From Dethiosulfovibrio sp. (lineage in GTDB: Bacteria > Synergistota > Synergistia > Synergistales > Dethiosulfovibrionaceae): a stretch of 15,287 nucleotides of DNA. Below the pieces are notes generated by a model, which was not told the origin of the DNA, made no database searches, and worked only from the letters and a program-made list of their open reading frames with translations. The stretch is from positions 1 through 15,287 of the forward strand of contig JAQUTB010000006.1 of assembly GCA_028709985.1 (NCBI GenBank), in the 5' to 3' direction. The stretch's first letter is position 1; each line of letters opens with the position of its first letter. This document shows, in pieces, positions 1-14,849 of this stretch. A program made the translations under genes and the position numbers.

Positions 1-562
1 GAATACCTACCAGATAGATATCATGTTCATGTCGCACTATCTGCAATTGCCCCTTAGTCTCTGTTGACCAACGGATGTACATCTCCGCATAATTTGAATC
101 AAACACAGTAAGGGTCTGGTTTCCCGATCCTTTCCATACAGCCTCCGTAAGCTCTCCCCGTCGAAAGGGACCATCCACGAGAGCTGTAAGTAATCGGGCT
201 ATTCTTGAATGATCTCGAAGAATAAACTTTTTTTCGTAGCCCGAATAGACAAGGATATCGTCCAGCCCCAAATCACGAAGCAAACTGATGAGAGAAGCAA
301 GTGCCTCCGGTTGGTCGAACGGTTCGCCACCAGAAATTGTAACGCCATTAATGCCTCTATCTACTTCAAGGAAGTATCGTACTCGCTCTTGGACGCTCTC
401 TATCGACGTTTTAAAACTTTGGTCAAAGGGCTGATTTTCCGGGGCAATACACCCTTCGCAACCGATAGAACATCCTTGGAACCATATACCAATTCTCCTA
501 CCGGGACCAAGCGTTTCAACAGGACAATGAAGAAGGCGAAGCAGCATAGTATCCTCTTTCAT
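1..562 (-). CDS. Radical-SAM protein, NrdG-like 4Fe-4S single-cluster family (partial, C-terminus off the left edge)
   Basis: The frame is open from an ATG at 562 to the left edge, giving 187 residues without a stop. It shows the radical-SAM signature C-X3-C-X2-C at C31, C35 and C38 (GCSIGCEGC), which binds a 4Fe-4S cluster and S-adenosylmethionine. The SAM-binding SGGEPF motif is at 77-82. VDGPF (129-133) and GSGNQTL (146-152) are motifs typical of the activating-enzyme group that includes NrdG of anaerobic ribonucleotide reductase. Family members generate a 5'-deoxyadenosyl radical, often to install a glycyl radical on a partner. The start overlaps the stop of the ATPase gene (ATGA), so translation is probably coupled. 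A second ATG at 547 has a better ribosome site (AGAGG, 5 nt upstream) and may be the true start. No class III reductase gene lies in the window, and the neighbours are an ATPase and a kinase, so a plain NrdG role is doubtful. The partner may lie further left. Confidence 0.9.
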   Translation of the reverse strand, partial: MKEDTMLLRLLHCPVETLGPGRRIGIWFQGCSIGCEGCIAPENQPFDQSFKTSIESVQERVRYFLEVDRGINGVTISGGEPFDQPEALASLISLLRDLGLDDILVYSGYEKKFILRDHSRIARLLTALVDGPFRRGELTEAVWKGSGNQTLTVFDSNYAEMYIRWSTETKGQLQIVRHEHDIYLVGI

Positions 563-2445
563 ATATTCTTCTCATTCCTAACAATCTCGATCGACCAGCC
601 ATCATCATTTTTATTAATACCTGTTAAAATAAGGTGCGTTTTTTCGCCGCTATGGATGTCTTTCTCGAATAAGGCCCGGGAGAGGGGGTTTATAAATATC
701 TCCTCCAGATTATTGCCAATCCCTCTGCCTCCCATAGAGAGATCGGCGCATACAAATTCCGCAAGTTTCTTTCTTGCAGCTTCGTCTACATCAAGAGTTA
801 TCCCGTGCGTATCTTCTAATCGAAAAAGAACATTAGCTAGCATTGCGTTGAAAATTCGCTCAGCAGTGCCTGTGCGGATAAAGTCAAAGACAACGATATT
901 CTTTCCGATACGATTGAGAATTTCCGGTCTGTTTATCTTGTACTTAAAAAAATCGTTAATGGCGCCAACTATTTTATCAGATACTTTTTCATACTCCATA
1001 TCTGGTGAAACGATTTGAAGTTTTTCTCCGTCCGGGAGTTGCTCGTAAACACCGAGATTACTGGTAAAGATGATAAGGCACTCAGAAAAATAGACCGTCT
1101 CACCCCTACTAGAGGAGAGTCTGCCATCGTCAAGAATCTGTAGAAACATGTCCAGAATCTTGGGGTTAGCCTTCTCTATTTCATCGAAGAGCACAACAGA
1201 GAAAGGGTTCTGCTTTACGGCATTGGTGAGTTCGCCGCCCACATCGTATCCAACATATCCAGGAGGGGCTCCAACAAGACGCTGGTCGGAGTGCTCCTGT
1301 CCAAATTCGCTCATATCGAAACGTATATAGCTGGTGGGCGAACCGAAGACCAATTCTGTGATAGACTTAGCCAACTCCGTCTTACCAACACCTGTGGGAC
1401 CTGCAAAGAAGAGAACCCCTTTAGGTCTTTGGGAATACCTAGAGAACTGTGCTCCTGAAAGGTTAAACACAGATCGCTTGAGGATATCGGCAGCGTGACG
1501 AATAGCGTGATTTTGCCCCATGACCTTTTCGCTGAGCAGAGTTTCAGCATCAGCAATTTTTCCGAGATCCAGTTTGGACCAAAGATTTTCAACAACACCA
1601 AGCTTATAACCACGTATAGCATCAGCTACCTCAGCAAAGCGAAGCTCTTCCTTCCGGGCAAGCTGGACAATGGATACAATTTCCTCTGCAAAGAGGCCCC
1701 TTGTCTGGGAAACGAAGATAGAAAGGTTCTCTCTCCGCCTGTTTTCATCCATATCATCGAATCCTATCATCTTGGGTGCAATAGATTCGACTATACGACG
1801 ACGTATCTCATAATCCGGGCGCGGCAGCGGGAGGACACGAATCTTCTGATTCTCCAGAGCAAACCATGCGGGAAGGTCGTTTTCCTTATCCAGTATCCAC
1901 ATAATCGGATTAAAACGTGGATAAAGAGGTGTAGCAGGTGCACCAGGAGAGATTGGCTCTCTCCCTGACCTATTAGGAATTTTAGGTGAAGCATTCCCAG
2001 CCAGGCGAAACATCCGGTAGAAAAAGTCTTCGGAGTCGGGCCGACAGAGCTCCTGTATTCTGGAAGCAAAGTTCAGTATGATAGCAACGTGCACCTTATC
2101 TGTCTCGACGAGTTTTTCTATAACATTGGCTACATCTGAGAGCTTAGCCTTAATAAGATTGCCATTACAATCTATTTGCTCTCCAGTTACATCATTGAAA
2201 AGGGCGGGGGATCCTTCAAGAAGGGAAAATCCGATAAGAGGCTCGTACTTGACCACTAACGAGTACCCTTCACGCTTTAGCGTTTCTTGGAGAAAGTCGC
2301 AGAGACGAAAAGTGCAAACCACGCCCTGCTCAATTTGCAGAGGATAGACATCATTAACATTCCCCCACAGGATAAATTGTGACTTGACCGGTAAAAAACG
2401 GAGTAGTTCTCTTGCCCACTTTAGGGGAATAAACTCAGCGCTCAT
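559..2445 (-). CDS. Hsp100/ClpB-type AAA+ ATPase with a degenerate first AAA-like domain
   Basis: This 628-residue protein has a complete ClpA/ClpB D2-type ATPase module in its second half: Walker A GPTGVGKT (349-356), pore loop GYVGY (396-400), Walker B VVLFDE (417-422), sensor 1 TSN (461-463), arginine finger in NRPEILNR (505-512) and a GGRGI sensor-2-like motif (572-576) in the D2-small domain. Such ATPases thread or remodel protein substrates through a hexameric pore. Residues 1 to about 280 look like a decayed AAA core. LILWGN-like and IMWILD strands and a PLPRPDYEIRRRIV segment (206-219) fit the end of an AAA fold, but there is no P-loop. No ClpP-binding IGF/IGL loop is visible in D2, so remodelling rather than proteolysis is likely. 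It overlaps both neighbours by 4 nt (ATGA). The true Clp N-domain, D1 ATPase and ClpB middle domain are all absent, so this is not a housekeeping ClpB. The substrate is unknown. Confidence 0.92.
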   Translation of the reverse strand: MSAEFIPLKWARELLRFLPVKSQFILWGNVNDVYPLQIEQGVVCTFRLCDFLQETLKREGYSLVVKYEPLIGFSLLEGSPALFNDVTGEQIDCNGNLIKAKLSDVANVIEKLVETDKVHVAIILNFASRIQELCRPDSEDFFYRMFRLAGNASPKIPNRSGREPISPGAPATPLYPRFNPIMWILDKENDLPAWFALENQKIRVLPLPRPDYEIRRRIVESIAPKMIGFDDMDENRRRENLSIFVSQTRGLFAEEIVSIVQLARKEELRFAEVADAIRGYKLGVVENLWSKLDLGKIADAETLLSEKVMGQNHAIRHAADILKRSVFNLSGAQFSRYSQRPKGVLFFAGPTGVGKTELAKSITELVFGSPTSYIRFDMSEFGQEHSDQRLVGAPPGYVGYDVGGELTNAVKQNPFSVVLFDEIEKANPKILDMFLQILDDGRLSSSRGETVYFSECLIIFTSNLGVYEQLPDGEKLQIVSPDMEYEKVSDKIVGAINDFFKYKINRPEILNRIGKNIVVFDFIRTGTAERIFNAMLANVLFRLEDTHGITLDVDEAARKKLAEFVCADLSMGGRGIGNNLEEIFINPLSRALFEKDIHSGEKTHLILTGINKNDDGWSIEIVRNEKNI

Positions 2446-3989
2446 TTCATTTCCCTTCCCTGTCTTACGCTCTCTCTAACTGGTTTGCTATGGCGAGAGG
2501 CAATTTTATCGTCGATAACCACGTCAAGCGGCTCTTCACCGGGTTCCTTACAATGGACAGGCTTCAGAAAAATGCCTTCCTTCTCCATTGAATCATAGAA
2601 GGCATTCAGATCTTTGCACCATTTCCTTCCGGTTTCCTCATCTTTTTGGCATTGATACTCCCCTCCGGCTTTTGCCTCATCCTCGTTTGCGACGACGCGG
2701 ACCAATCTCGTGGCTAATTTTCCTCCATCAATGCGGACAATAACTCTATATCCTTTGTACGGTGACTCCAGATAACAGATCTCTCCTGGTGGAAGCGAGG
2801 TAACCGGATCTCCTACGAATACCCTATCCTCGGCGATAAGAGAGTAGCCCATTTCGCCCAGAACACTCCCCATCTTACGAGCCACCGCGTCATCCAATAG
2901 GGAGTCAAGTTGTTCCGCAAATATGGTTTTAATTTCACAGTAAAGGGGAGAGAAATCGTTTCTGTCTACTTTTTCTGAACTAAGAAGTTCTTCCATCCGA
3001 ACAATAACAGACTCAGAGTTCTTAGTCCGCTTCATGACTGGCAGAAGTTCCCTAATTTCTTGCTTGAAGAGTTCTGTGAGCACCTTACACTCTTTTAGCC
3101 TACCGTAGGTGGTCTTGACCTGATCACGTATTGAGGAGATCCGGAAATGACTGGTGCAGCAGGTCGCCTCCTCCATAAGAGGGCGTAAAATTTCGGCCTC
3201 TTGTCTGTCAAAAAAAGCAATTCGGCCACCGAAGTCCGCGATATCAGCCCGCATCAATTCGATATCCTTATTTTGCTCCGCAGCTTCAACCTGGGGAGCA
3301 GGTGGAGGCACAACAAAAATATCCTCAACGATACCTTCAAGGGAGAATGTAGCGACCTTATTCATTTGCACTGCAAAGTTATTTGCTTTGCTAATCAAGG
3401 AGTTCAATTGATTTATTTTTCGGTTAACAGGTAGATTTTGAACTTCCTTGGCCGAGGCCAGCAACTTCTTCCAATCACTACGAAAGCCGGGGAGCATGTT
3501 TGATTCAACTGTGGACACGAGGGATTCAAAGCCGGAGACAAGAGAACTAGCCATTTCTTCATCCATCTTTGCCTCAAGAAGCTTGCCTCTTATCTCACGA
3601 AAAGATTCTTTGACAGTCGTATGGCCACGCTGGATGTCCAGCTTACAAGATGAGAGAGTCTGCTGGAGAAATTCTTTAAGAGAGCGCTTGGCCGTCGTGT
3701 CACTCAGCATGTCAATTTGAGCAGAGAGTTCCTTTGATAGTCCCTCAGCAACTTTGACAAGAGCCTTACGCTGTTCCTCGATACGGCGTTGCTCTTCGAG
3801 ACGACGTTGCTTTGCTTTTTCTGCACGTCGATCTTCAGAAGCCTTCGAAGTAACGTTTGCCCCTATGCCCGACTCTTTGTCTCCCAGAAGATATGCCACT
3901 CCTAAAACAGCACCGACAGCTAAGAACCCTACACCAAAAATTACAGCCTCCAGACACAGTCCTACTTCTGACACTCTGGCTTGACTCAT
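2442..3989 (-). CDS. Membrane-anchored coiled-coil protein of unknown function
   Basis: I do not recognise this 515-residue protein. Residues 12-36 form one hydrophobic segment rich in Gly, Ala and Val, with no cleavage site, so it is likely an N-terminal membrane anchor. Residues 52-80 are a highly charged Arg/Glu/Gln coiled-coil (RRLEEQRRIEEQRK). Residues 80 to about 360 are predicted mostly helical, interrupted by a Pro-rich linker near VVPPPAPQVE. The last 150 residues look like a globular alpha/beta domain (KMGSVLGEMGYSL onward), with a Cys at EICYLES and two more at EYQCQ and KWCKD. The ATG at 3989 is preceded by AAGGA at 9-nt spacing. The stop overlaps the ATPase start (ATGA), so the two are translated together. 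This suggests an adaptor or scaffold that tethers the ATPase to the membrane. That role comes only from context. Confidence 0.88.
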   Translation of the reverse strand: MSQARVSEVGLCLEAVIFGVGFLAVGAVLGVAYLLGDKESGIGANVTSKASEDRRAEKAKQRRLEEQRRIEEQRKALVKVAEGLSKELSAQIDMLSDTTAKRSLKEFLQQTLSSCKLDIQRGHTTVKESFREIRGKLLEAKMDEEMASSLVSGFESLVSTVESNMLPGFRSDWKKLLASAKEVQNLPVNRKINQLNSLISKANNFAVQMNKVATFSLEGIVEDIFVVPPPAPQVEAAEQNKDIELMRADIADFGGRIAFFDRQEAEILRPLMEEATCCTSHFRISSIRDQVKTTYGRLKECKVLTELFKQEIRELLPVMKRTKNSESVIVRMEELLSSEKVDRNDFSPLYCEIKTIFAEQLDSLLDDAVARKMGSVLGEMGYSLIAEDRVFVGDPVTSLPPGEICYLESPYKGYRVIVRIDGGKLATRLVRVVANEDEAKAGGEYQCQKDEETGRKWCKDLNAFYDSMEKEGIFLKPVHCKEPGEEPLDVVIDDKIASRHSKPVRESVRQGREMK

Positions 3990-4477
3990 CGCGACACATC
4001 CTTATTGCTACTCAAGATATCTTAGGCGTAACTATTCAATCGCCCTACCAATTTAGATCTTAAATCAGCAGTCGTTTAGTTCCTTGTGATGTAATATCAT
4101 TAAAACACAATAAACCTGAAGAGGGAGACCTATCCATGTTTCAGCCCCCCCTACGAAGAACTCTTCGAGGAAAATCAGATGCTTAAGGCTATAAAAATTC
4201 CAATCTAACCAAGTCACAAGAAGAAAAACGCAGAGGCTGAGTCAGTTAATTCGATCTTTTTGCGACATCTCTCTTGATAGGCTCCGCATCTAGAACTACA
4301 CCTCCAAGGTTTTTTTGTGAACTACATAGACAAAATATTTAAATTCTCCTTTACTGCAGAGGAATACACACGGCGAAAGAATGATAAGCTTCATCTCAAG
4401 AAGGTCCATCTCAAATAAAAAAAAACATGAATTTTGTCAGCTAAAATATAGCCTTTAAATGTCAATTTATAATCATC
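3990..4477. other. AT-rich 488-bp gap between the kinase and coiled-coil genes
   Basis: I see no intact gene here on either strand. It is strongly AT-rich, with an A-run near 4418-4426 that would give a U-tract on the minus-strand kinase transcript, but no convincing hairpin precedes it. GCTA/TAGC at about 4440-4454 is only a weak 4-bp stem. The length of the gap means the three downstream genes could have their own promoter. I could not find a good -35/-10 pair upstream of 3989. A short plus-strand frame with a ribosome site and an apparent frameshift is listed separately. Confidence 0.5.
4136..4208 (+). pseudogene. Possible decayed 5' end of a gene (transposase-like helix), frameshifted in a C7 run
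   Basis: An ATG at 4136 follows a purine-rich GAGGGAGA element. After five codons there is a run of seven C (4145-4151). If one C is skipped, the frame continues as PYEELFEENQMLKAIKIPI and stops at 4206-4208. The acidic helix YEELFEENQMLK resembles the N-terminal coiled-coil of IS66-type transposases, but only loosely. As sequenced, the frame instead ends after 16 codons. It lies opposite to the flanking genes in an otherwise empty gap, as expected for a remnant of an insertion or a lost gene. The evidence is thin and the resemblance could be chance. Confidence 0.2.
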
Positions 4478-6985
4478 CTACAAACCATTTAAAAAAGCCA
4501 TGATACCCAAAATTAAAACCACTGCACCTACACCTGGTGAAAAAAACACACTTACTAAAGCAGCAAGACCAACCAAACCGATAAAAAGCTCAATAACATT
4601 CCAGAAAATTAAGACTAAGCAAACACAAATCATCAAAATTATTGCTGTCCACGGAATAGACTGGTCTTCCTTTTTTCGACGAGCTTCTTTTTTGTTTTTT
4701 TCGAAATCATTGTTTTGAGATTTTTTTTTCGATTGGACTTGCACTGCCTTGTTCTGATTTTTATTGTTGTCCCTTTGGTTCTCTTTTTTTTCTCTTGCAA
4801 ATCGTTCTTTTTTAATCTCAACATATGTTTTAATTAATTTATCGTTATGAGAGTTACTTGGTATTCTTGAAATAACGGTCTCCATGGGCACGACCATCCC
4901 TGCTTTATCTTTATTAATAAATTTATTGTAAAGTGAAAGTAAAAGGTTACGATCACTTTGAGTAATGCTTACTTTTTTCTCTATAAAAGGAGTGATATAT
5001 ATGCGGAGAAGATTGCTTTGTGCCACCACAAGAGAATCGTTTCCTTTATATGATTTAGAAACTAGTTTATTAGAAAGATAAAAAATAACATTTATAATTT
5101 CTTTGTCATAGCCCCAAAAAAACTTTAACGCCATTTCCTTGTAGTTTTCGAAGGTTCCCTCGCAAAGCTTAGTCCTTTCCTCTCCCGTAACAAACGCCCA
5201 CGAAAAAAAGAGTTTGTTCTGCTCAAGATCTTCAATGTTGGACAAAGTGCTTGTATATTGTTCCGATGAGAGATTCAGATTAGCGATCACACTCTTAGGA
5301 CAAATATATTTTTCTGAAAAAGATTTCCATCGCTTCTTTGTCCATGGGATTTTTTTCATGTCAATGAGCGCCTTCAGAACTCGATCTAGTGACGGACGAT
5401 CACCCAAAAAGGGCAAAAAATACTTATCCCTACGTACAAGAACAGTAAGCAGTTGAAAAGCATCTGCGGGAGTATTTCCAGCTAGAAACTTAACAACAGC
5501 GAACATCTCACTTAAATTTTCTTCTTTGTTTAATTTAGAATATAGCTCTAAAAAACATAAAAGATTCCCATTCAGCAGGTTGGTGACGATTTTCGTCTCG
5601 GCTTCCCCCAAGTTTTCTTTCTTCGCGTACTTCCCTAAAAAAAGATAGATATTGTTTAATGTCAACGGCTTTCCCATAAATACTAACGGCAAAGACTTTC
5701 CGTAAGTATGAATGAAAAGGAACATCTTTTCTTCTGCGTCCTTAACCTTCTCGATAAGAGCATCCAGATCAAGTGCTTGTTCGTATTCCCCCCTTCCCTC
5801 AAGCCACATACGGATATTCCCGCGAAGCAATAACCCCTTCCCCTTGTTCCAAGATTCCTCGTTTTTTGCACACGCTATCGCTAACTCATGAAGATCGTGA
5901 CACTCTACACCCATGAAATCAAGGGGCTTCATAATCACCTCTCTTGCAACATCTTTAAGCGCTCGTTCATAGTACTCTGGAATATCGCGTTTTCCAGATA
6001 GCCATCTTGTTACTTCCTCTGCTCCCCAGCGCTTTTTCATGTCTCGCGTCAACAGACCACGTAGAAGCAGCTTGCAATCTTCCGGTAAACTCTCTGGAAT
6101 CTCAACTGGCTTCGTTGCAAGGATTGTATGAATCACCTGAGAGTTAAGTCCTTGAAAGGGGTGCTCCCCCAATGCAATTTCCAATGCGATCATCCCTAAC
6201 CCCCACCAATCGGAGGCTTTTCCCATACTTCCAACCGCCGATTCGGGGGATTGGTACATCGGCGTACCGCGAGATGATGTAAACTTCTTTGATAGCTCCG
6301 GATCCAGAATGCTTGCCACTCCAAAATCGGTGAGTACGAGATCCAATGGATACTCGGAGCGAATAAGAACGTTCCCCGGCTTCAGGTCAAGATGAAGAAG
6401 ACCATTGTCATGAAGAACAATAAGGCTAGCGGATATTTCTCGCACTACAGTATTGAATAAAGCGCTTGCACGAGTTATGCATTTTGCTTTATTTTTTGTT
6501 AGATAATTTTTCAATGAACCAAAAGGAGCAATTTCCTGTATTTCATACCATCTTTTGCTTTTTTCATCGAAACCAGTCTCAAATATGCGCACCATATCTT
6601 TTGGATTGTTCTTACTCAGTGCTTCTATTTTTTCAAGCACTTCGAATTTGGGCTCGATACCTATTCGATAAAGTTTGAGGATACGACGATCCCCATTCCT
6701 CTCAATGACGTGAATGTCCGACTCGGCACCGTAAGAAGGGAGATGTTCAACAACACGATAGTCTCCAAATGTTTCAAAGGTACCAAGATAAGTTTTTACT
6801 GATCCGGACTCTCCTTCGTACAACGTCTGGTCACTTCTCTCGGCAACTGTAGCTTCTGAACTCTTTCTTCTATTTTCAAAAAGAGTTTCTGCGGCTCCCT
6901 GCTGCTTTTTCACACTTACCACATCTCCTTCAAACATAAAACTTGTGAAGCATGTCGCACATAACCTCAATACGTAAAAAGGCAT
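4478..6985 (-). CDS. Membrane-anchored Ser/Thr protein kinase (Hanks type, non-RD) with a helical C-terminal region
   Basis: This 835-residue protein has a eukaryotic-like kinase domain at about 76-335. It has a Val-Ala-Ile-Lys-type lysine at K104 (RILKLY), catalytic loop HLDLKPGN (198-205), DFG (220-222), activation segment ending in SPES (246-249), and a WWGLG helix (260-264) after D259. The usual HRD Arg is Leu199, so it is a non-RD kinase, and the Gly-rich loop is poor (only G86 is clear). Residues 340 to about 730 look helical and repeat-like. They are followed by a Lys/Asn/Gln-rich charged linker (about 730-776) and a hydrophobic C-terminal hairpin of two or three membrane helices (777-835). 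The kinase thus faces the cytoplasm on a C-terminal anchor, the reverse of PknB, where the membrane helix leads to an external sensor. ATG 6985 has AGGT 9 nt upstream. GTG at 6913 preceded by GGAG is an alternative and would drop the odd Cys-containing leader. Confidence 0.93.
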   Translation of the reverse strand: MPFYVLRLCATCFTSFMFEGDVVSVKKQQGAAETLFENRRKSSEATVAERSDQTLYEGESGSVKTYLGTFETFGDYRVVEHLPSYGAESDIHVIERNGDRRILKLYRIGIEPKFEVLEKIEALSKNNPKDMVRIFETGFDEKSKRWYEIQEIAPFGSLKNYLTKNKAKCITRASALFNTVVREISASLIVLHDNGLLHLDLKPGNVLIRSEYPLDLVLTDFGVASILDPELSKKFTSSRGTPMYQSPESAVGSMGKASDWWGLGMIALEIALGEHPFQGLNSQVIHTILATKPVEIPESLPEDCKLLLRGLLTRDMKKRWGAEEVTRWLSGKRDIPEYYERALKDVAREVIMKPLDFMGVECHDLHELAIACAKNEESWNKGKGLLLRGNIRMWLEGRGEYEQALDLDALIEKVKDAEEKMFLFIHTYGKSLPLVFMGKPLTLNNIYLFLGKYAKKENLGEAETKIVTNLLNGNLLCFLELYSKLNKEENLSEMFAVVKFLAGNTPADAFQLLTVLVRRDKYFLPFLGDRPSLDRVLKALIDMKKIPWTKKRWKSFSEKYICPKSVIANLNLSSEQYTSTLSNIEDLEQNKLFFSWAFVTGEERTKLCEGTFENYKEMALKFFWGYDKEIINVIFYLSNKLVSKSYKGNDSLVVAQSNLLRIYITPFIEKKVSITQSDRNLLLSLYNKFINKDKAGMVVPMETVISRIPSNSHNDKLIKTYVEIKKERFAREKKENQRDNNKNQNKAVQVQSKKKSQNNDFEKNKKEARRKKEDQSIPWTAIILMICVCLVLIFWNVIELFIGLVGLAALVSVFFSPGVGAVVLILGIMAFLNGL

Positions 6986-7072
6986 CTAAAGAGTACCTCG
7001 CTAGAGGGTAACTCAATAAATTCATCGCGCTTCTTAACTCATAACCAGGCTAAACATAAATACTTTGCAAAC

Positions 7073-7457: not shown

Positions 7458-8234
7458 CTACCTCCCCCGCCACACAGGCTCTCTCTTTCCTAAAAAAGCC
7501 TCCAGACCTTCCCTTGCGTCCTCCGTCGCAGCCAGGGCGGCAAACCTCTCCCCTGCTGCCTCTATGGCTCGCTCCAGGGTAAGGCCCTCCATCTGCTGCA
7601 ATCCCCTTTTGCCGGTTTTCAGGGCAAGGGGGCTCTTCTTTGCCAGCTTTGCCGCAAACTCCATGGTCGCCTCCTCCAGCTTCTCCAGGGGAACCACCTG
7701 ACTGGCTATGCCAAGCCTCAGGGCCTCCTCCGCCGGTATGAAGTCTCCGGTCAGGACGTATTGTAGGGCCCGTTTGGGGCCTATCCAGCGGGAAAGCTGA
7801 TAGCCCGGCTCCAGGCATATGAGCCCCACGTTTATGGCGGTGGTGCCGAAGACGGCGTTCTCCGCCGCGACTATGAAGTCGCAGGCCAGGGCAAGCCCAG
7901 CACCGTTCGCCAGGGTGTAGCCCTGGACGGAGGCAATAACCGGCTTGGACATGGCAAACAGGACGTTGTTGTGCCGGTCCATCAGCCGCAAAAACTCCCG
8001 AATCTCGTGCTTTTCTTTCGACAGAAACTCCTTCAGGTCGATGCCTGTGGAGAAGTGCTTTCCCGCTCCACCCAGGACGATAACCACAACCTCTGGGTTC
8101 GACTCCATGGCCTCCAGGGCGTCGGAGAGGTCCCTTGCCAGCGCGCTTGAGAAGGTGTTCATCGACTCAGGTCTGTTGAGGGTGATCTTGCCGATCCCCT
8201 CCCTAATTTCCGTGACAACCGCTTTGCGCTCCAT
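7458..8234 (-). CDS. Enoyl-CoA hydratase/isomerase (crotonase) superfamily protein with atypical active site
   Basis: The 258-residue length and fold are those of a crotonase. It has an N-terminal ITLNRPESMNTFS segment, oxyanion-hole loop GKHFSTGIDLKEF (58-70), and the second signature VQGYTLANGAGLALACDF (103-120). Family members bind acyl-CoA thioesters and stabilise the enolate. Aligned by eye with mammalian enoyl-CoA hydratase, the two catalytic glutamates (Glu144 and Glu164) fall on G113 and A133. A glutamate is present instead in the loop LICLEPGYQL (E142). Ordinary hydratase activity is therefore doubtful; an isomerase, lyase, hydrolase or other crotonase reaction is possible. ATG 8234 has a GGAAGGA ribosome site 8 nt upstream. 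It is transcribed away from the GntR regulator and the dehydrogenase operon, which suggests control by the same regulator and a role in the same pathway. Confidence 0.93.
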   Translation of the reverse strand: MERKAVVTEIREGIGKITLNRPESMNTFSSALARDLSDALEAMESNPEVVVIVLGGAGKHFSTGIDLKEFLSKEKHEIREFLRLMDRHNNVLFAMSKPVIASVQGYTLANGAGLALACDFIVAAENAVFGTTAINVGLICLEPGYQLSRWIGPKRALQYVLTGDFIPAEEALRLGIASQVVPLEKLEEATMEFAAKLAKKSPLALKTGKRGLQQMEGLTLERAIEAAGERFAALAATEDAREGLEAFLGKREPVWRGR

Positions 8235-8499
8235 TTATATCATCCTTCCATGCTCAAGGATTTCCCCTATGAATATGGGCTGCCCCAGTATAGACACAGA
8301 CCTGCCATCAAGTCCACAGAGAGCGGCAAATTACCGCAAAAGTGGGCCTCTTTAGCAAACCTCCCATCTCTTTCAGTTCACATCCCCCTCAAAAAACCGC
8401 TTTACACAGATGAAACGTTCTAGGGCTGTATTTTTTGACCTTGCCTGATTATTCCAGCACAGTAACTTGCACATAAAAAAACAAAGAGCCTGTATTTTA

Positions 8500-8516
8500 A
8501 CAGTAAAGTATACTGT
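8500..8516. promoter_or_regulatory. 17-bp palindrome, candidate GntR/FCD operator
   Basis: ACAGTA and TACTGT arms are separated by 5 nt (AAGTA) and overlap a second palindrome, AGTATACT (8507-8514). GntR/FCD regulators bind short palindromes, often built round GTATAC-like cores, and this sits about 120 bp upstream of a gene for one. No binding evidence exists beyond the symmetry and location. Confidence 0.45.
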
Positions 8517-8589
8517 ATAAACGGCGAAAAACTTTTGATTTTCAAGTTTAAAGTCCGTATAGTTACATAAGCCCAGGTGACGTACAACT

Positions 8590-8612
8590 TGTATGGAAGT
8601 GGAATACATACA
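8590..8612. promoter_or_regulatory. Inverted repeat TGTATG-N11-CATACA, candidate operator near the regulator start
   Basis: Two perfect 6-nt arms lie 11 nt apart, just upstream of the proposed TTG start at 8637. The position is what one expects for an autoregulatory operator overlapping the promoter or leader. The arms share the TGTAT word with sites at 8427, 8491 and 8514. If translation instead started at GTG 8577, the repeat would lie inside the gene. Confidence 0.35.
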
Positions 8613-8636
8613 CTGAAGGGCATCGGAGGGGTTGCT

Positions 8637-9263
8637 TTGAGGAGCAGGAAGAAGGATCAGGCCTATCAGGCCATCAAGAGGATGATCCTGTCCAAGGAGA
8701 TCACCGAGGATCACTGTCTGTCGGAGAACAGTCTGGCCCAGATGCTCGATATGAGCCGCACCCCCGTGAGGGAGGCCCTTTTGAAGCTCCAGTCCGAGGG
8801 CTTCGTCACGGTGATACCAAACAGAGGGGCGGTCATAAACACCGTTTCGGTGGTGGAGGCCAGGGAGATCTACGACATGAGGATGGCAATAGAGGAGTTC
8901 GTCGTCCGAAACCTGGCGGACAAGCTGACCGAGGACCATTTCAGGACGCTGGACAGGCTTATCGCCGAACAGGAGAGGGCCTGCGCCGCCGGGAACCTGG
9001 ACGAATATCTCAAGGCGGACAGCCGTTTCCACGACTTTTTCCTCCAGCTCTACGGCAACAGGGCCATTCTGGAGGCCATCCTACAGGTCAGGCAGAGGTT
9101 TCACACAGTAGGGGTGTCGGTTTTGACAACCCAGAAGGACATCGAGACGTCCTTGAATTACCACAAGGAAATCGTCCAGGCACTAAAGGACAAGGACGTG
9201 GAGAGGGCGGTCCGCACCACCCACGACCACCTAAAGTTCGGCAAGACCAATCTTCTCAAGTGA
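8637..9263 (+). CDS. GntR-family transcriptional regulator, FCD (FadR-type) subfamily
   Basis: Counting from the TTG start, this is a 208-residue protein. Its N-terminus is a winged helix-turn-helix (AYQAIKRMILSKEI, then ENSLAQMLDMSRTPVREALLKL and a wing GFVTVIPNRGAVI). The rest is an all-helical FCD ligand domain with the usual metal or ligand histidines in RFHDFF, NYHKEI and THDHLKF. FCD proteins usually repress catabolic operons and release DNA when they bind a small organic acid. I chose TTG 8637 because GGAGGGG lies 5 nt upstream and the family normally begins about 10 residues before the first helix. GTG 8577 would add 20 residues without a ribosome site. It immediately precedes the dehydrogenase operon and diverges from the crotonase, so both are probable targets. 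Confidence 0.93.
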   Translation: MRSRKKDQAYQAIKRMILSKEITEDHCLSENSLAQMLDMSRTPVREALLKLQSEGFVTVIPNRGAVINTVSVVEAREIYDMRMAIEEFVVRNLADKLTEDHFRTLDRLIAEQERACAAGNLDEYLKADSRFHDFFLQLYGNRAILEAILQVRQRFHTVGVSVLTTQKDIETSLNYHKEIVQALKDKDVERAVRTTHDHLKFGKTNLLK

Positions 9264-9268
9264 GTCAA

Positions 9269-9286
9269 AAAGGGGATTTCCCCTTT
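9269..9286 (+). terminator. Small hairpin between the regulator and the dehydrogenase operon
   Basis: AAAGGGG and CCCCTTT pair around an ATTT loop directly after the regulator stop codon. An A/T-rich tract (ATATAAAAA) follows, but no U-run, so it is at best a weak terminator or an attenuating hairpin that lowers read-through into the E1 genes. An independent promoter for the operon could lie over it. Confidence 0.4.
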
Positions 9287-9333
9287 ATATAAAAAGCGAG
9301 TGGGGTAAACACAACAGGAGGAGGGTTCAGCGT

Positions 9334-10338
9334 ATGTGTGCAAAAGCTATTCGTAAAGAGCCGCTTGTCCCGGTCACTGCCTATGATCGGGACCTTTTGG
9401 TGGAGCTCTACAGAAAGATGGTGTCCATCCGTCTGTTCGAGCAGAAGGTGGAACATCATTTTCTGGCGGGGGACATACCGGGATTCGTCCATCTCTACAT
9501 AGGTGAGGAAGGGATAGCCACCGGGGTCATGGCCAACATGACCAAGGAGGACTATATCGAAAGCACCCACCGAGGTCACGGCCACACAGTTGCGAAAGGC
9601 GCCGACCTGAACCGCATGATGGCGGAGATCTTCGGCAAGAGGACGGGATGCTGCAAGGGCAAGGGAGGCTCTATGCATATAGCGGACTTCAGCGTGGGAA
9701 TGCTGGGGGCCAACGGCATAGTGGGAGGGGGCTATACCCTGGCGGTCGGCGCCGGTCTGGCGTCCAAACTGAGGGGAGACGACCGAGTCTCGGCGGTGTT
9801 CTTCGGTGACGGGGCCTCCAACAGGGGAACCTTCCACGAGGCACTGAACATGGCGGCGGTTTGGAACCTGCCGGTGCTTTTCGTCTGCGAGAACAACCAG
9901 TGGGCCTCCACCACACCGACCAACACGGCAAACTCGGTGGAGGACGTAGCGGACCGGGCCCAGGGATACGGTATTCCGGGCTATATAGTGGACGGAAACG
10001 ACGTTTTTGCCGTGTACGAGGCGGCGAAGGAGATAATCCAGTCGATCCGGTCCGGCGGCGGCCCTGTCCTTCTGGAGTGCAAGACCTACCGAATCAAGGG
10101 ACACTTCGTGGGAGACCCTGAGAAATACAGGACCAAAGAAGAGGTCCAGAATATGCAGCAGACCAACGATCCTATCACCCGGTTCGAGGCCAAGGTCACC
10201 GAGGCGGGGGTCATGACGGATCAGGAGCTTGAGGAGATCCACCGCCAGGTGGAGGCGGCCATAGAGGACGCGGTGCGGTTCGCCCTCGAGAGTCCCGAGC
10301 CCGATCCGTCGGAGCTCTACGAAGACCTTTACGTGTAG
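9334..10338 (+). CDS. acoA: TPP-dependent dehydrogenase E1 component, alpha subunit (acetoin/2-oxoacid type)
   Basis: This 334-residue protein is the thiamine-diphosphate-binding alpha subunit of a two-subunit E1. The cofactor motif begins at GDG (158-160) and ends at NN (187-188). HRGHGH (79-84) and the CKGKGGSMH loop (107-115) are close to those of acetoin dehydrogenase AcoA as I recall the family. The segment YRIKGHFVGDPEKYR matches the regulatory loop region of this class. With the beta subunit it decarboxylates or cleaves the substrate and passes an acyl group to lipoyl-E2. A strong GGAGGAGG lies 9 nt before the ATG. The beta subunit follows after 15 nt, so the two are co-transcribed. 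A branched-chain or pyruvate substrate cannot be excluded, because these paralogues are hard to separate by eye. Confidence 0.93.
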   Translation: MCAKAIRKEPLVPVTAYDRDLLVELYRKMVSIRLFEQKVEHHFLAGDIPGFVHLYIGEEGIATGVMANMTKEDYIESTHRGHGHTVAKGADLNRMMAEIFGKRTGCCKGKGGSMHIADFSVGMLGANGIVGGGYTLAVGAGLASKLRGDDRVSAVFFGDGASNRGTFHEALNMAAVWNLPVLFVCENNQWASTTPTNTANSVEDVADRAQGYGIPGYIVDGNDVFAVYEAAKEIIQSIRSGGGPVLLECKTYRIKGHFVGDPEKYRTKEEVQNMQQTNDPITRFEAKVTEAGVMTDQELEEIHRQVEAAIEDAVRFALESPEPDPSELYEDLYV

Positions 10339-10353
10339 TCAGGAGGAAGAATT

Positions 10354-11337
10354 ATGGCTGAGACTAAAAATATAACCTTCTCTCAGGCGACCCTTGAGGC
10401 GATGCAGGAGGAGATGGCCAGGGACGACAGGGTTTTCGTCATGGGCGAGGATATCGTCAGACAGGGAGGCATCTTCGGTCAGTTCAGAGGGCTTCCCGAC
10501 TCCTTCGGAACCGAGAGGGTCAGGGACACACCTATCACCGAGACCGCCATCATAGGGGCGGCGGTGGGTGCGGCCCTCGCCGGTATGAGGCCCATAGCGG
10601 ATATGCACTTCGCCGACTTTATGATGGTCTGCGGAGATGAGATATACAACCAGATGGCAAAAGTTCACTATATGTTCGGAGGCCAAAAAACCGTTCCTAT
10701 GGTGCTCAGGGCTCCAGACGGCCTTATCAACCAGGCGGCGGCCCAGCATTCCCAGAGCCTGGAGGCTATTTTTCAGCATATCCCAGGGCTTAAGGTGGTG
10801 GCCCCGTCAAATCCGGCGGACGCCAAGGGGCTTCTGAAGTCGGCCATAAGGGACGATAATCCGGTGATCTACTTCGAGCACAAGGCCCTGTTCAACACAA
10901 AAGGGGACGTCCCCACCGACGATTACCTAACCCCCATAGGCAAGGCAAAGGTGGTCAGTGAGGGATCCGACGTCACTATGGTGTCCTATTCAAACTGTCT
11001 CCAGACCGTTGCCAAGCCGGTGGTGGAGATGGCGTCTAAAGAGGGTATCTCCATAGAGCTGGTGGACCTCAGGACCATCTCCCCCATAGACAAAGACACT
11101 ATACTCGAATCGGTGGCGAAGACCAGCAGGCTGGTCATAGTCCACGAGGCGGTCAAGCAGGGAGGGGTCGGAGGGGAGATCTCCGCCATCGTCGCCGAGG
11201 AGGCGATAGACCTTTTGGACGCCCCTATACTCCGGTTCGGAGCGCCCTTCACCCCTGTGGCCTTCGCCAGGCCTCTGGAGCAGGAGTACCGTCTGAAGCC
11301 CCAGGCCATCCTGGAGGCTATCAGGAAGATGTTCTAG
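10354..11337 (+). CDS. acoB: TPP-dependent dehydrogenase E1 component, beta subunit (transketolase-like)
   Basis: This is a 327-residue partner of the preceding alpha subunit. It has the transketolase pyrimidine-binding fold, with GEDI (31-34) and the conserved cofactor glutamate in PITE (60-63). AAQHSQSLEAIF and NPVIYFEHKALF are hallmarks of E1 beta, and the transketolase C-terminal domain follows (about 195-327). The alpha and beta chains form the heterotetrameric E1. The start is clear: AGGAGG stands 7 nt before the ATG. The next gene begins 3 nt after the stop. Length and motifs fit AcoB, PdhB and BkdB alike. The acetoin label rests mainly on the alpha subunit. Confidence 0.93.
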   Translation: MAETKNITFSQATLEAMQEEMARDDRVFVMGEDIVRQGGIFGQFRGLPDSFGTERVRDTPITETAIIGAAVGAALAGMRPIADMHFADFMMVCGDEIYNQMAKVHYMFGGQKTVPMVLRAPDGLINQAAAQHSQSLEAIFQHIPGLKVVAPSNPADAKGLLKSAIRDDNPVIYFEHKALFNTKGDVPTDDYLTPIGKAKVVSEGSDVTMVSYSNCLQTVAKPVVEMASKEGISIELVDLRTISPIDKDTILESVAKTSRLVIVHEAVKQGGVGGEISAIVAEEAIDLLDAPILRFGAPFTPVAFARPLEQEYRLKPQAILEAIRKMF

Positions 11338-11340
11338 GCC

Positions 11341-11859
11341 ATGGCGGCCTTTCAGTCGGTGGTTCCAGAGGGGACGGTGAAGATCGTCGCCAGGCTAACC
11401 CCTGGGACCGACCTTTTCGAGGGAATCAGGGAGATCTGTCGTCACCACCAGGTGGAGTGCGGAGCCATAGACACCGCCTTAGGAAGCCTGACCTCCGCAA
11501 CGGTGGTATGCATATCCCCCGACGAGTCGTCCCCCTCCGGGGCGTCCTACCGGGAGCCCCTTAACGTAAAAGGACCTCTCGAGCTGGTCTCGGCCTGCGG
11601 AACTATCGGTACGGAAGGCGAGTCGGGAGAGCTGTCGATCCACGTCCACGGGACGGTGGCGGTTGACGAGGCAAAGGCCTATTACGGCCATTTCGTCGAC
11701 GACGGACGCAACAGGGTCCTGGCCACAGTGGAGATAGCGATAACCAAATTTATCGGAATGAGGTGGATCCGAGGTCTCGACGAGGAGACGGGATTTCCCC
11801 TCTTTAAACCGGAGCCCCACAATCGATCGGGAGAGGTTGGAGGTGGTCGATCACGGTGA
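11341..11859 (+). CDS. PPC (DUF296) domain protein
   Basis: This 172-residue protein matches the plant-and-prokaryote-conserved PPC/DUF296 fold, a trimer-forming domain of unknown biochemical role in bacteria. The characteristic H-x-H pair is at H101 and H103 (ELSIHVHGTV), with a further His at H117 (YYGHFVDDGR). These are expected metal ligands. GAIDTALGSLTSATV and KGPLELVSACGTIG are also typical. It starts 3 nt after the E1 beta stop. The best upstream purine element is distant (AGGAAG, 12 nt), so translation probably depends on coupling. Its tail (from about 158) is polar and glycine-rich, and the stop overlaps a GTGA. Being embedded in a catabolic operon suggests an enzymatic, ligand-binding or regulatory role there, which is inference. 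Confidence 0.88.
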   Translation: MAAFQSVVPEGTVKIVARLTPGTDLFEGIREICRHHQVECGAIDTALGSLTSATVVCISPDESSPSGASYREPLNVKGPLELVSACGTIGTEGESGELSIHVHGTVAVDEAKAYYGHFVDDGRNRVLATVEIAITKFIGMRWIRGLDEETGFPLFKPEPHNRSGEVGGGRSR

Positions 11860-11912
11860 AAACGCGCTTAGTGTGCAACTCAGGGCTTCTTATATCGCAA
11901 GGAGGGAATGAA

Positions 11913-12989
11913 ATGAAGAAAAAGGTTTCTGCGGTTCTGCTGACTGTCATGATACTCTGCATCGCCCTTCCGGGATTCGCTTCCTACAAGAACGAGTACA
12001 AAATGAGCGTCGTCCCAGGCGCCGTCACCCCTTGGGGGATGGGCGCTGGCTACTTCGCCGAGCTGGTCAACGAGAGGACCGAGGGACGGGTCAACGTCAA
12101 GGTTTACTACTCGGGACAGCTTTTCGCCGGCAAACAGACCTCCGAGTTCCTTCTGCTCAGGAACGGAGCCATCGACTTTTCGCTGGCGTCGACGATCAAC
12201 TGGTCTCCCCAGGTCAACGAGCTGAACCTTCCGGCTCTGCCTTTCTTCGTAGCCTCGGACGTGGATAAAAGATACGCCGCCATGGACGCCATAGAGGACG
12301 GCAAGTCGGGCAAGATGATGATCGACGCGGTGGAGAAAAAGGGCGTCAAGTTCCTGGCCTGGGGCGAGAACGGCTTTAGAGAGCTCACCAACAGCGTCAG
12401 AGAGGTTGCCACCGTCGAGGACATGAAGGACCTCAAGCTCAGGGTCGTCGGAAGCCCCATCTACATCGACACCTTCAAGGCCCTTGGAGCCAACCCGATC
12501 AACATGAACTGGTCCGAGGCAACGACGGGATTCCAGCAGGGACTTGTCGACGGCCAGGAGAACCCTCTGGTCGGGATATGCATCCCGGTTAAAATCTGGG
12601 ACTACCATAAGTACCTCACCAACTGGCACTACGTCATAGATCCCCTCCTCCTTGCGGTCAACCCCAAGGTGTGGAAGAGCTTCGACGAGAAGGACCAGGC
12701 CATCATAGCCCAGTGTGCCGTAGACGCCATGAAGTATCAGAAGGCAATATCCCGCATAGGCCTGGACGACGGAAGCTCTCTGGCCTACCTCGACAGCATC
12801 GGCAAGACCCCTGAGGTCAAAGACCCGATCAAGTTCTGCGAGGAAAACGGCATGACAGTGACGAACCTTACCCCTGAGAGCGTTCAGGCCTTTAAGGACG
12901 CCACGGCGTCTGTGAGAGAGGACTGGACCAAGAAGATCGGTCCCGAGCTAGTAGCTGCCGCCGAGGAGGATATGGCTTCGGTACAGTAA
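11913..12989 (+). CDS. dctP: TRAP transporter substrate-binding protein, DctP family
   Basis: This is the periplasmic binding protein of a tripartite ATP-independent transporter. From ATG 11913 it has 358 residues. A signal peptide has Lys residues 2-4, a hydrophobic core and a likely cut after GFA (residue 23). The ligand-carboxylate arginine is expected at R177 in DLKLRVVGSP, followed by the classic FKALGANPINMNW and FQQGLVDGQENP segments. TRAP binding proteins usually carry organic acids, often 2-oxo or hydroxy acids. ATG 11913 is chosen because AAGGAGG lies 7-8 nt upstream and because it gives a proper signal peptide. A GTG at 11856 overlapping the previous stop would put 19 unsuitable residues in front. 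It is followed by a hairpin that probably sets a higher level of this protein than of its membrane partners. Confidence 0.95.
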   Translation: MKKKVSAVLLTVMILCIALPGFASYKNEYKMSVVPGAVTPWGMGAGYFAELVNERTEGRVNVKVYYSGQLFAGKQTSEFLLLRNGAIDFSLASTINWSPQVNELNLPALPFFVASDVDKRYAAMDAIEDGKSGKMMIDAVEKKGVKFLAWGENGFRELTNSVREVATVEDMKDLKLRVVGSPIYIDTFKALGANPINMNWSEATTGFQQGLVDGQENPLVGICIPVKIWDYHKYLTNWHYVIDPLLLAVNPKVWKSFDEKDQAIIAQCAVDAMKYQKAISRIGLDDGSSLAYLDSIGKTPEVKDPIKFCEENGMTVTNLTPESVQAFKDATASVREDWTKKIGPELVAAAEEDMASVQ

Positions 12990-13000
12990 CAAAACCTGTA

Positions 13001-13032
13001 GAGAGAGGGAGATTCTCTCCCCTCCCTCTCTC
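13001..13032 (+). promoter_or_regulatory. Intercistronic hairpin between dctP and dctQ
   Basis: A perfect 11-bp inverted repeat, GAGAGAGGGAG and CTCCCTCTCTC with a 10-nt loop, starts 11 nt after the dctP stop. There is no T-run after it, so it is unlikely to terminate fully. Such hairpins downstream of binding-protein genes typically protect the 3' end of the processed mRNA and give an excess of binding protein. Confidence 0.7.
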
Positions 13033-13058
13033 CCGTGATACGAAAGGGGTGGCGGTTT

Positions 13059-13529
13059 ATGTTTTCCAAGTTTCTGGATCACTTCGAGGAGATATTGGGG
13101 TCTCTGTTGGTAGCCGTGATGGTGACCATATCCTTCGTAAACGTGATAACTAGATATTTCATAAAGATGTCCCTGTCCTGGTCAGAGGAGATAACGGTCA
13201 ACCTGTTCGTCTGGGTGGTCCTCTTGGGCACATCGGTGGCGTTCAAAAAGGGCTCCCATCTGGGGATGGAGTTCGTATACGAGAGGCTTCCCGTTAAGTG
13301 CAAAAAGGTCCTTTTTCTGCTCTCCAGCGCCCTGTCCATAGGATTTTTCGTCGTCCTGGGATGGCTTGGATCACTGGAGGTCATAGACGAGATGGACCTG
13401 TCGGTCATAACCGAGTCGCTGGCCATACCGGTCTGGTATTACACCATAGCTGTCCCGGTCTTTTCACTGCTGATAATCGTCAGGATAGTGCAAAACACCG
13501 TTCAGGTCCTTAGGGACAAATCCTACTGA
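13059..13529 (+). CDS. dctQ: TRAP transporter small permease subunit, DctQ family
   Basis: This is a 156-residue inner-membrane protein with four hydrophobic segments: around ILGSLLVAVMVTISFVNVI, LFVWVVLLGTSVAF, VLFLLSSALSIGFFVVLG and WYYTIAVPVFSLLIIVRIV. The RYFIKMSLSWSEEIT stretch between the first two is the DctQ signature region. It associates with DctM in the Na+-driven permease. ATG 13059 has AAGGGG 9-10 nt upstream. A GTG at 13035 would add eight basic residues and lies just past the hairpin, so I prefer the ATG. The next gene starts 12 nt after its stop. Confidence 0.93.
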   Translation: MFSKFLDHFEEILGSLLVAVMVTISFVNVITRYFIKMSLSWSEEITVNLFVWVVLLGTSVAFKKGSHLGMEFVYERLPVKCKKVLFLLSSALSIGFFVVLGWLGSLEVIDEMDLSVITESLAIPVWYYTIAVPVFSLLIIVRIVQNTVQVLRDKSY

Positions 13530-13541
13530 GGAGGTATCACG

Positions 13542-14837
13542 ATGAATTTTTCCGATCCTGCACTCTGGACGATGATACTCTTCGTCGTGCCTCTGCTAAT
13601 AAAGGTCCCTATAGCCATAGCCCTGGGCGGAGCGGCGGTCGTGGTGGTCCACTTCTGGGACATGGGACTTCCCATGATCTCCTACAACTTTTTCGCCGGA
13701 ATAGCCAAGTTTCCCCTGCTGGCCATACCCTTTTTCATAATGGCCGGGGTCATCATGGAGAAGGCGGGCATAGCGGAGCGGATCATCGTCCTGATGAAGA
13801 AGATGGTCGGCAACATGACCGGAGGCCTTGCGATAGCCACCGTCGGGGTCGCCACATTCTGGGGGGCGGTCAGCGGCTCAGGCCCTGCCACAGTGGCGGC
13901 GCTGGGACTCATCCTCATCCCTGGAATGGCGAACGCAGGCTACGATAAGCCTTTCGCCGCTGCGACGGTTTCGGTGGCATCGGGGCTTGCCATAGTCATA
14001 CCGCCAAGCATCGCCTTTATAGTCTACGGAGGCGTCGCCAACGTCTCCATACCGGCGCTCTTTGCAGCTGGCTTCATCCCCGGGGCCGTCGTGGCGCTGT
14101 TCATGATGGGAGCTGTATATCTGGTGTCCCGTAAAAAGGGCTACGGAGGTGGAGAGCCAGCGAAGCCAGGGGAGATATTCACCGCCTTCAAGCGGTCCTT
14201 CTGGGGCATCTTGGCTCCGGTCATAATACTTGGGGGCATCTACGGTGGAATATTCACCCCCACCGAGGCCGCAGCTGTGGCGGTTTTCTACGGCCTCTTC
14301 GTGGGAGTTTTCGTCTACAGGCAGATAAACTCCTTCTCGATAATTTACGAGATACTGTCATCCACGGTGGTCGCCACGTCGGTGGTCATGATAGTGGTCA
14401 CCTGTGCCGGTCTGTTCTCCTGGGTCGGAGCGACGGTTGGACTCATAGAGAAGGGGGCAGGGGTGCTTCTCGGCATATCCCAGTCCCAGTGGGTCATACT
14501 GCTCATGATAAACGTCATATTGCTCCTGGCCGGGATGGTGCTGGACGCCATTTCCATCTACTACGTCTTTTTGCCCATACTGCTCCCGATAATGGCCCAT
14601 TTCGGATGGGACCCTATCTGGTTCGGGGTCATGATGACCATAAACCTCGCCATAGGTCAGGTCACCCCTCCTGTGGCGGTGAACCTCTACGTCGGAGCGA
14701 ACATAAGCGGACTGACCATAGAGGACATAAGCCGTCCCGCCCTGCCGCTGATCTTTGCGGCCATAGTGGCCCTGGCGGTGATAGTCCTCTTCCCCCAGCT
14801 ATCGACCTGGTTGCCCTACACGCTGGGACTTAAATAG
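13542..14837 (+). CDS. dctM: TRAP transporter large permease subunit, DctM family
   Basis: This 431-residue polytopic membrane protein (about 11-12 hydrophobic segments) is the transport subunit of the TRAP system. WGAVSGSGPATVAALG, IPPSIAFIVYGGVANVSIP and GGIFTPTEAAAVAVFYG are hallmarks of the family, and the length is standard. The start has AGGAGG 7 nt before the ATG. With DctP and DctQ it forms a Na+-coupled importer with an expected organic-acid substrate. The lipoyl E2 gene of the dehydrogenase begins 12 nt after its stop with its own AGGAGG, so import and oxidation are encoded in one unit. Confidence 0.95.
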   Translation: MNFSDPALWTMILFVVPLLIKVPIAIALGGAAVVVVHFWDMGLPMISYNFFAGIAKFPLLAIPFFIMAGVIMEKAGIAERIIVLMKKMVGNMTGGLAIATVGVATFWGAVSGSGPATVAALGLILIPGMANAGYDKPFAAATVSVASGLAIVIPPSIAFIVYGGVANVSIPALFAAGFIPGAVVALFMMGAVYLVSRKKGYGGGEPAKPGEIFTAFKRSFWGILAPVIILGGIYGGIFTPTEAAAVAVFYGLFVGVFVYRQINSFSIIYEILSSTVVATSVVMIVVTCAGLFSWVGATVGLIEKGAGVLLGISQSQWVILLMINVILLLAGMVLDAISIYYVFLPILLPIMAHFGWDPIWFGVMMTINLAIGQVTPPVAVNLYVGANISGLTIEDISRPALPLIFAAIVALAVIVLFPQLSTWLPYTLGLK

Positions 14838-14849
14838 GAGGTGTGAGTT

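Follow-up and report, generated by a model that had tools for sequence, protein, structure and literature searches.

Four linked genes for a kinase, a coiled-coil protein, an Hsp100-like ATPase and a radical-SAM protein form a system in Synergistota, probably a new one for stress or anti-phage defence

The threonine-phosphorylation pathway of the type VI secretion system (T6SS) combines a membrane Ser/Thr kinase, a PP2C phosphatase, an FHA protein and an Hsp100 ATPase (PpkA, PppA, Fha and ClpV). Kinase, PP2C and vWA genes have also been linked to a GTPase system (eLife 2020, PMC7159879, in the sections consulted). Here, we analyzed a stretch of DNA from Dethiosulfovibrio sp. (assembly GCA_028709985.1, contig JAQUTB010000006.1), hereafter the window. 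It is the whole of contig C55, exactly 15,287 bases, and its source assembly is 66% complete. Positions 2-6985 hold four minus-strand genes, for a radical S-adenosylmethionine (radical-SAM) protein, an Hsp100-like ATPase, a coiled-coil protein and a kinase. The contig end falls within the radical-SAM gene, and the operon is thus cut off. We found that these four genes form a system. This is probably a new system that acts in stress or against phages, because relatives of the motor and the radical-SAM protein travel together in distant bacteria and because no description of the cassette was found among the open-access papers listed, most of them judged by title and abstract, including the consulted parts of PMC7159879, PMC10853773, PMC8195603 and PMC5379612 (an earlier account in a subscription paper or supplement is possible). 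Each part is of a familiar type; the novelty lies in their recurring combination and in the strict dependence between ATPase and radical-SAM protein.

Kinase, PP2C and FHA protein are encoded together in related cassettes, as in the T6SS pathway; of the three, the window shows the kinase alone. However, the cassette ATPase is not ClpV (the window ATPase scored 204 bits against ClpV/TssH TIGR03345, with a cut-off of 885), and the cassette adds a coiled coil and a radical-SAM protein. The T6SS sheath gene VipB/TssC (PF05943) was found in none of nine carriers, mostly incomplete genomes, in a search whose Escherichia coli control was positive. The defence families Mokosh, Hhe and PDC-S37 offer another likeness. 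In PADLOC, the kinase/helicase fusion that adjoins the ATPase-radical-SAM pair in locus L099 matched PDC-S37, Hhe and MkoA, and the helicases of the Synergistota genome G058 and of a Moellerella plasmid were related to MkoA. By contrast, the window cassette has no helicase as far as it is visible. Its kinase matched just the kinase part (profile 62-275 of 1112) of Mokosh type I MkoA, which joins a kinase and an SF1 helicase in one protein. MkoB had no match among the four proteins of the truncated contig and a weak one (3e-7) in the G058 variant. To our knowledge, none of these families is defined with an Hsp100 or radical-SAM component.

TerY-P triads comprise vWA, PP2C and a kinase with a zinc ribbon. 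The variant in genome G057 is similar, with vWA, PP2C and kinase genes, the kinase having, by eye, a zinc-ribbon-like stretch. The window differs in that no vWA was seen in its truncated contig (nor were the six-gene cassettes scanned for this domain) and in that the cassette adds the Hsp100 and radical-SAM proteins. The disaggregases ClpB, ClpG and ClpK share the D2 motor with the cassette ATPase, but the upper ring of the latter is dead, its sensor-2 motif is GGRG instead of GARP, and there is no full-length match: the two-ring ClpB profile gave 244 bits against 1232, through the second ring only. NrdG and other glycyl-radical activases share the cluster motif and small size of the radical-SAM protein. 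The cassette protein is, however, an extra paralogue tied to the ATPase, and no glycyl-radical enzyme was recognized in the cassette.

The first-pass annotation had proposed the four genes as one system, and they do occur together elsewhere, both in genome counts and in fetched loci. Among 185 Synergistota genomes, the ATPase was present in 21 and the coiled coil, the kinase and the radical-SAM protein in 20 each. ATPase and coiled coil shared 19 genomes (Fisher's P = 1e-22), ATPase and kinase 17 (P = 1e-17), coiled coil and kinase 18 (P = 8e-21), and ATPase and radical-SAM protein 20 (P = 7e-26); these values ignore phylogeny and relatedness. The E thresholds were 1e-100 for the ATPase, 1e-10 for the coiled coil, 1e-60 for the kinase and 1e-40 for the radical-SAM protein, and in some genomes the searches scored just a portion of the first-look candidates. 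In a profile search, none of the six other genomes of the window's genus carried the ATPase.

Fetched regions were annotated with hidden Markov models built for this analysis. In related Synergistota cassettes, a zinc-ribbon/FHA protein and a PP2C phosphatase regularly follow the radical-SAM gene, at a place that lies beyond the contig end here. Thus, the proposed four-gene set stood as a set, but it was incomplete. All six parts were found in seven distinct loci. Six of these (L047, L048, L051, L052, L053 and L055) keep the complete order kinase, coiled coil, ATPase, radical-SAM, FHA, PP2C, and L060 is rearranged; L007 is the same region as L047, and L047 and L055 have two kinases each. The genes bordering the cassettes mostly differ between loci, and the few clusters that recur do so in two loci each. 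Some genomes, such as G093 and G144, encode further kinase copies away from the cassette. Genome G063 holds what may be a motor-less relative (L084:5728-9269), in which a 286-residue membrane protein stands between coiled coil and PP2C, with no ATPase or radical-SAM gene.

In the phylum, co-occurrence of the radical-SAM protein with the ATPase is strict. All 20 genomes with a cassette-type radical-SAM protein also have the ATPase, even where the genes are unlinked, and in the 21st carrier (G058) a more divergent radical-SAM gene directly adjoins the ATPase. Cassettes without an adjacent radical-SAM gene in G096, G097, G141, G143 and G147 at first suggested that this part is dispensable. This was ruled out, since a cassette-type radical-SAM gene was found elsewhere in all five of these genomes; the part is therefore not optional. 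In G148 it lies on a separate contig, and the cassette contig stops inside the ATPase. In G141, the unlinked radical-SAM gene is followed, after one gene, by a protein of 1,577 residues that contains a P-loop-like stretch and by eye looks like a BREX-type ATPase (L204:1677-6410).

The window protein has the superfamily features of a CxxxCxxC motif and Pfam matches (Fer4_12, 2e-23; Radical_SAM, 3e-8). Its best NCBIfam match is NrdG (8e-23), at 81 bits against a cut-off of 126 for a gene cut by the contig end; uncut relatives scored 83-110, likewise under the cut-off. NrdD genes have an above-cut-off NrdG next door in G093, G145, G153 and G157. In G150, G057 and G058, no NrdD match was found, and the radical-SAM gene is present. 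The window's own genome (G000) has an NrdD gene on contig C185, at whose edge lies an NrdG-like fragment. Judged from these matches and gene neighbourhoods, the cassette protein is not the housekeeping activase of ribonucleotide reductase.

It had also been suggested that co-occurrence in distant phyla would support a system. This held for the ATPase-radical-SAM pair, which occurs in Synergistota, Bacillota and Pseudomonadota and in most cases is accompanied by a coiled-coil protein, but not for the kinase type and the membrane-anchored coiled coil, which were seen only in Synergistota. Three Succinivibrionaceae loci have coiled coil, FHA, radical-SAM, ATPase and PP2C genes, with no window-type kinase in the stretch covered. 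In the Clostridia locus L013, the radical-SAM gene lies 4.8 kb after the ATPase; two of its neighbours, suspected by eye to be GAP1 and DO-GTPase, had no Pfam GAP1 or DO-GTPase match at 0.01. In two other Clostridia loci, the gene after the ATPase has about 220 codons, and the two are related to each other (L008:11869-12585 and L009:11887-12549, 33% identity). By protein names alone, without gene context, ATPase relatives exist in Nitrospirae, Wallbacteria and Hydrogenedens. None of 142 phage records with a match covered 80% of the ATPase. Among the 80 viral-contig loci listed, matches began only at residue 249, which proves little about a phage origin.

In a plasmid collection, 19 records covered at least 80% of the ATPase. 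We examined 11 of them and one more with 65% cover, and a radical-SAM gene or similar frame adjoined the ATPase in 11 of these 12 (the frame is short in Rhizobium L100). Three arrangements were seen. In Aristaeella, the order is a DUF4011 protein with a weak helicase match, kinase, coiled coil, FHA, radical-SAM, ATPase, PP2C, a DUF6273 protein and a kinase. In Rhizobium and Caballeronia, ATPase and radical-SAM genes are followed by a kinase-matching protein of some 2,100 residues (two frames in L100) and a coiled coil; in L099, the one tested, this protein also matched helicase families. In Moellerella, Photobacterium, Acinetobacter, Polaromonas and Leisingera, an SF1 helicase, a PIN protein and a coiled coil precede ATPase and radical-SAM. 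The Synergistota genome G058 resembles this last arrangement, with a weak family match for the PIN protein, and the G057 variant adds vWA, PP2C, kinase and helicase genes. Some plasmids with the pair are conjugative, and plasmid cassettes lie near ArdA, a restriction subunit and integrases. Among 1466 E. coli records with a match, none covered 80% of the plasmid trio by DNA. One Rhizobium plasmid carries two tandem open reading frames of equal length and identical start (L109:3036-6160).

In its N-terminal part, the ATPase shows a p97/Vps4-like AAA fold that lacks nucleotide motifs; an intact ClpB-type motor follows (Pfam AAA_2, 4e-45; ClpB_D2-small, 4e-8). The D2-small domain, Walker A, Walker B, sensor 1 and the arginine finger are kept in all 21 aligned ATPases, including that of the window. 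The sensor-2 motif GGRG is specific to this family. It was present in 146 of 148 unique high-scoring sequences, against one of 92 low-scoring Clp-like ones. That one is L045 (370 bits), a fragment of the G139 cassette. Family membership was counted by a score above 480 or by GGRG, so L045 entered through its motif alone and the raw tallies read 147/149 and 0/91. The high-scoring exceptions are L013 (GARG) and L106 (GGRK). Sequences in this count were unique by matched string, with near-identical copies kept, and the comparison set included Clp-like proteins from viral loci. In the window kinase (Pkinase, 8e-31) and its relatives, the lysine, catalytic loop and DFG are invariant (nine aligned kinases). 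The same is true of the PP2C aspartates (11 phosphatases) and of the arginine, serine, histidine, asparagine and four zinc-ribbon cysteines of the FHA protein (11 proteins), which are the signature residues of these families.

The window coiled coil had no Pfam family above its cut-off. By its C-terminal domain, it is homologous to soluble coiled-coil proteins of other phyla that begin with MSGPK (hhalign E = 5e-7, probability 92.5). Of 48 database relatives, counting the query, 45 have this motif at the N-terminus and two more have it slightly later. In these proteins (P0121-P0168), the N-terminus is near-invariant while the middles differ strongly. MSGPK is kept in all four aligned Rhizobium/Caballeronia coiled coils, whose C-terminal match was weak (E = 0.001, probability 21%), and the window's membrane-anchored form lacks it. 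A link to the coiled coils of the helicase-PIN variant is uncertain (hhalign E about 0.05). We found no relevant account of MSGPK in the open-access literature, only an unrelated paper. The C-terminal domain gave a model of moderate quality (predicted local distance difference test score 79) with no PDB match at E = 0.001. The GY motif of this domain was considered as a glycyl-radical site and dropped, as the model shows no glycyl-radical loop.

To the right of the strain-specific segment, the DNA is 93-96% identical to that of the same-genus genomes G110 and G111, which lack the cassette. Contamination is therefore unlikely. We viewed this flank in four of the six same-genus genomes (G107, G109, G110 and G111, not G106 and G108), for the right junction only, the left flank being outside the contig. 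Other defence-type genes were present in three of the four. G111 has a CSD-like protein (weak match), an IetA-like AAA, a DUF3800 and a TPR protein, an MSGPK coiled coil, a radical-SAM protein and a CARF-HD protein (L094:479-10406), so that coiled coil and radical-SAM protein are paired again, but with a different AAA protein. G110 has a ubiquitin-like conjugation set of a JAB-ThiF (JAB-E1) fusion and an E2-like protein (L095:5846-8769). G107 has CARF-HD, an RtcR-like CARF-AAA protein and a protein of 1,692 residues for which PADLOC gave no match (L097:1-11841). The G109 contig starts 1.3 kb from the flank, with only transposase-like frames by eye. The flank looks like a variable defence-type site.

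How these parts might work together can be outlined. The membrane kinase would sense a cue and phosphorylate its partners, and the zinc-ribbon/FHA protein would bind phosphothreonine and bring the ATPase to the coiled-coil scaffold. There the ATPase, whose upper ring would be dead and whose ClpB-type lower ring would be live, could unfold or remodel a target, after which PP2C would reset the switch. The radical-SAM protein may serve as dedicated maturase for one of the system's parts, a protein being a likelier substrate than a metabolite. We propose a phospho-switched remodelling machine because the part list matches the T6SS pathway but the sheath gene was not found in any of the nine carriers searched. 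The cassette and its ATPase-radical-SAM linkage are observed; activities, targets and a role in defence are inferred. The full reading, a self-contained mobile cassette with such a machine and its own radical-SAM maturase, serving stress or phage defence, has in our view about an even chance. It is supported by the seven six-part loci with mostly unshared borders, the genome-level co-occurrence, the unlinked radical-SAM genes, the carriers in which NrdD has its own NrdG or was not found, the conserved kinase, PP2C and FHA residues, the dead AAA fold beside an intact D2 and the family-specific GGRG. A role in defence or acute stress is more likely than housekeeping, and defence is favoured by the CARF, JAB/E1-like and E2-like genes at the same flank, by the ArdA, restriction and integrase context on plasmids and by the helicase and kinase partners that match PADLOC defence families. 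If the reading is true, a radical enzyme is required by an AAA+ motor family that spans several phyla, for which we found no account in the open-access literature, and phospho-signalling, protein unfolding and radical chemistry are linked in one mobile cassette. It also makes testable what small NrdG-like enzymes do besides activating glycyl-radical enzymes.

Several observations weigh against this reading. FHA and PP2C were not found in the window's own incomplete genome, in a search without a positive control. The kinase was not found in four of the 21 ATPase carriers (G057, G058, G150 and G156, some near contig ends), and it occurs without the ATPase in G063, G080 and G092. G063 is 95% complete and encodes the coiled coil, the PP2C and the kinase, with no ATPase at E = 1e-100 and no radical-SAM protein at 1e-40; its kinase contig carries a weaker radical-SAM frame (132 bits). 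The Geminocystis plasmid ATPase (L106) has no adjacent radical-SAM gene. The Clostridia loci L008 and L009 have the ATPase without recognizable radical-SAM, FHA, PP2C or coiled coil, within about 10 kb upstream in both and downstream within about 10 kb in L009 and 2.2 kb in L008. No nuclease, toxin or known effector is among the window's cassette genes, their PADLOC matches were partial, with generic ones for the kinase, and the Moellerella PIN protein had no PADLOC match. In addition, the look for defence genes covered the window's site in same-genus genomes, not the flanks of other cassettes.

Other explanations should be weighed. The kinase-PP2C-FHA switch might toggle a disaggregase in a proteostasis or envelope-stress module with no anti-phage role. 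The ClpB-type Hsp100-like motor, the membrane anchors of kinase and coiled coil, the lack of a nuclease in the six-gene cassettes as annotated and the existence of ClpG and ClpK disaggregases as NCBIfam families all fit such a module. However, the sporadic spread of the ATPase (21 of 185 genomes and none of six same-genus relatives), the flank shared with defence-type genes and the variants with helicase and PIN genes do not, and we regard it as possible, if unlikely. A conflict system as predicted by Aravind and colleagues, with kinase, PP2C and vWA plus NTPases, would act by programmed cell arrest rather than phage removal. The G057 variant, with its vWA, PP2C, kinase and helicase genes, and the GTPase-linked genes in the consulted sections of PMC7159879 speak for it. 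Since those sections do not describe the Hsp100-radical-SAM pair and no effector was recognized in the six-gene cassettes, it seems rather improbable.

The equality of the part list with PpkA, PppA, Fha and ClpV would also suit a T6SS-like threonine-phosphorylation regulator whose contractile or secretion machine is encoded at another locus. As no sheath gene was found in the nine carriers searched and the ClpV score is low, this is highly improbable. As to the radical-SAM protein, its best NCBIfam match would be explained if it were merely the anaerobic ribonucleotide reductase activase, placed by chance. This idea has next to no chance of being right: the score is sub-cut-off, four carriers have NrdD with its own NrdG, three have the protein without an NrdD match, and the co-occurrence with the ATPase stands against it, so that it is already contradicted in the carriers tested. 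Within the preferred reading of a remodelling machine with a radical-SAM maturase, a bolder version is a radical-gated unfolding motor. The radical-SAM protein would take hydrogen from the near-invariant sensor-2 glycine that replaces proline (GGRG for GARP), which would yield a glycyl radical or alter the backbone in another way. The motor would then work only when matured, and oxygen or an invader's chemistry could switch it off. We consider this version very doubtful. In a close variant of it, the modification may instead fall on the coiled-coil partner, at its near-invariant N-terminal MSGPK.

The layout of the window agreed with the first-pass annotation, which had placed all four genes at the positions in the table below. 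The ATGA overlaps that join three of them (2442-2445 and 559-562) are present, and the kinase lies upstream on the same strand, separated from the coiled-coil gene by 488 bases (36.9% GC) without overlap. The two membrane anchors it described correspond to hydrophobic segments at coiled-coil residues 6-37 and kinase residues 774-835. Its impression of AT-rich, island-like DNA was borne out as well, with a GC content of 0.34-0.475 in positions 1-7000 against 0.51-0.60 from 7001 on, besides the defence-type genes at the same flank in same-genus genomes.

Table 1. Genes of the cassette and border of the strain-specific segment in the window.
Feature	Position	Strand	Description
NrdG-like radical-SAM protein	2..562	-	187 aa visible, cut by contig end; CxxxCxxC cluster motif
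Hsp100-like ATPase	559..2445	-	residues 1-290 AAA-fold without Walker motifs; residues 300-604 ClpB-D2-like motor, Walker A/B and sensor-2 GGRG intact
Membrane-anchored coiled-coil protein	2442..3989	-	conserved C-terminal domain (motif MGY, later WC)
Ser/Thr protein kinase, 835 aa	4478..6985	-	kinase domain at residues 70-330 (approximate) with intact catalytic residues; transmembrane segments at the C-terminus
Right edge of strain-specific segment, approximate	7350		rightward DNA 93-96% identical to two cassette-free same-genus genomes

The rest of the window (7458-15287) encodes an enoyl-CoA hydratase and a GntR/FCD regulator by Pfam. Further to the right, E1 alpha/beta dehydrogenase, TRAP transporter and lipoyl-domain genes were recognized by eye, which belong to ordinary metabolism.

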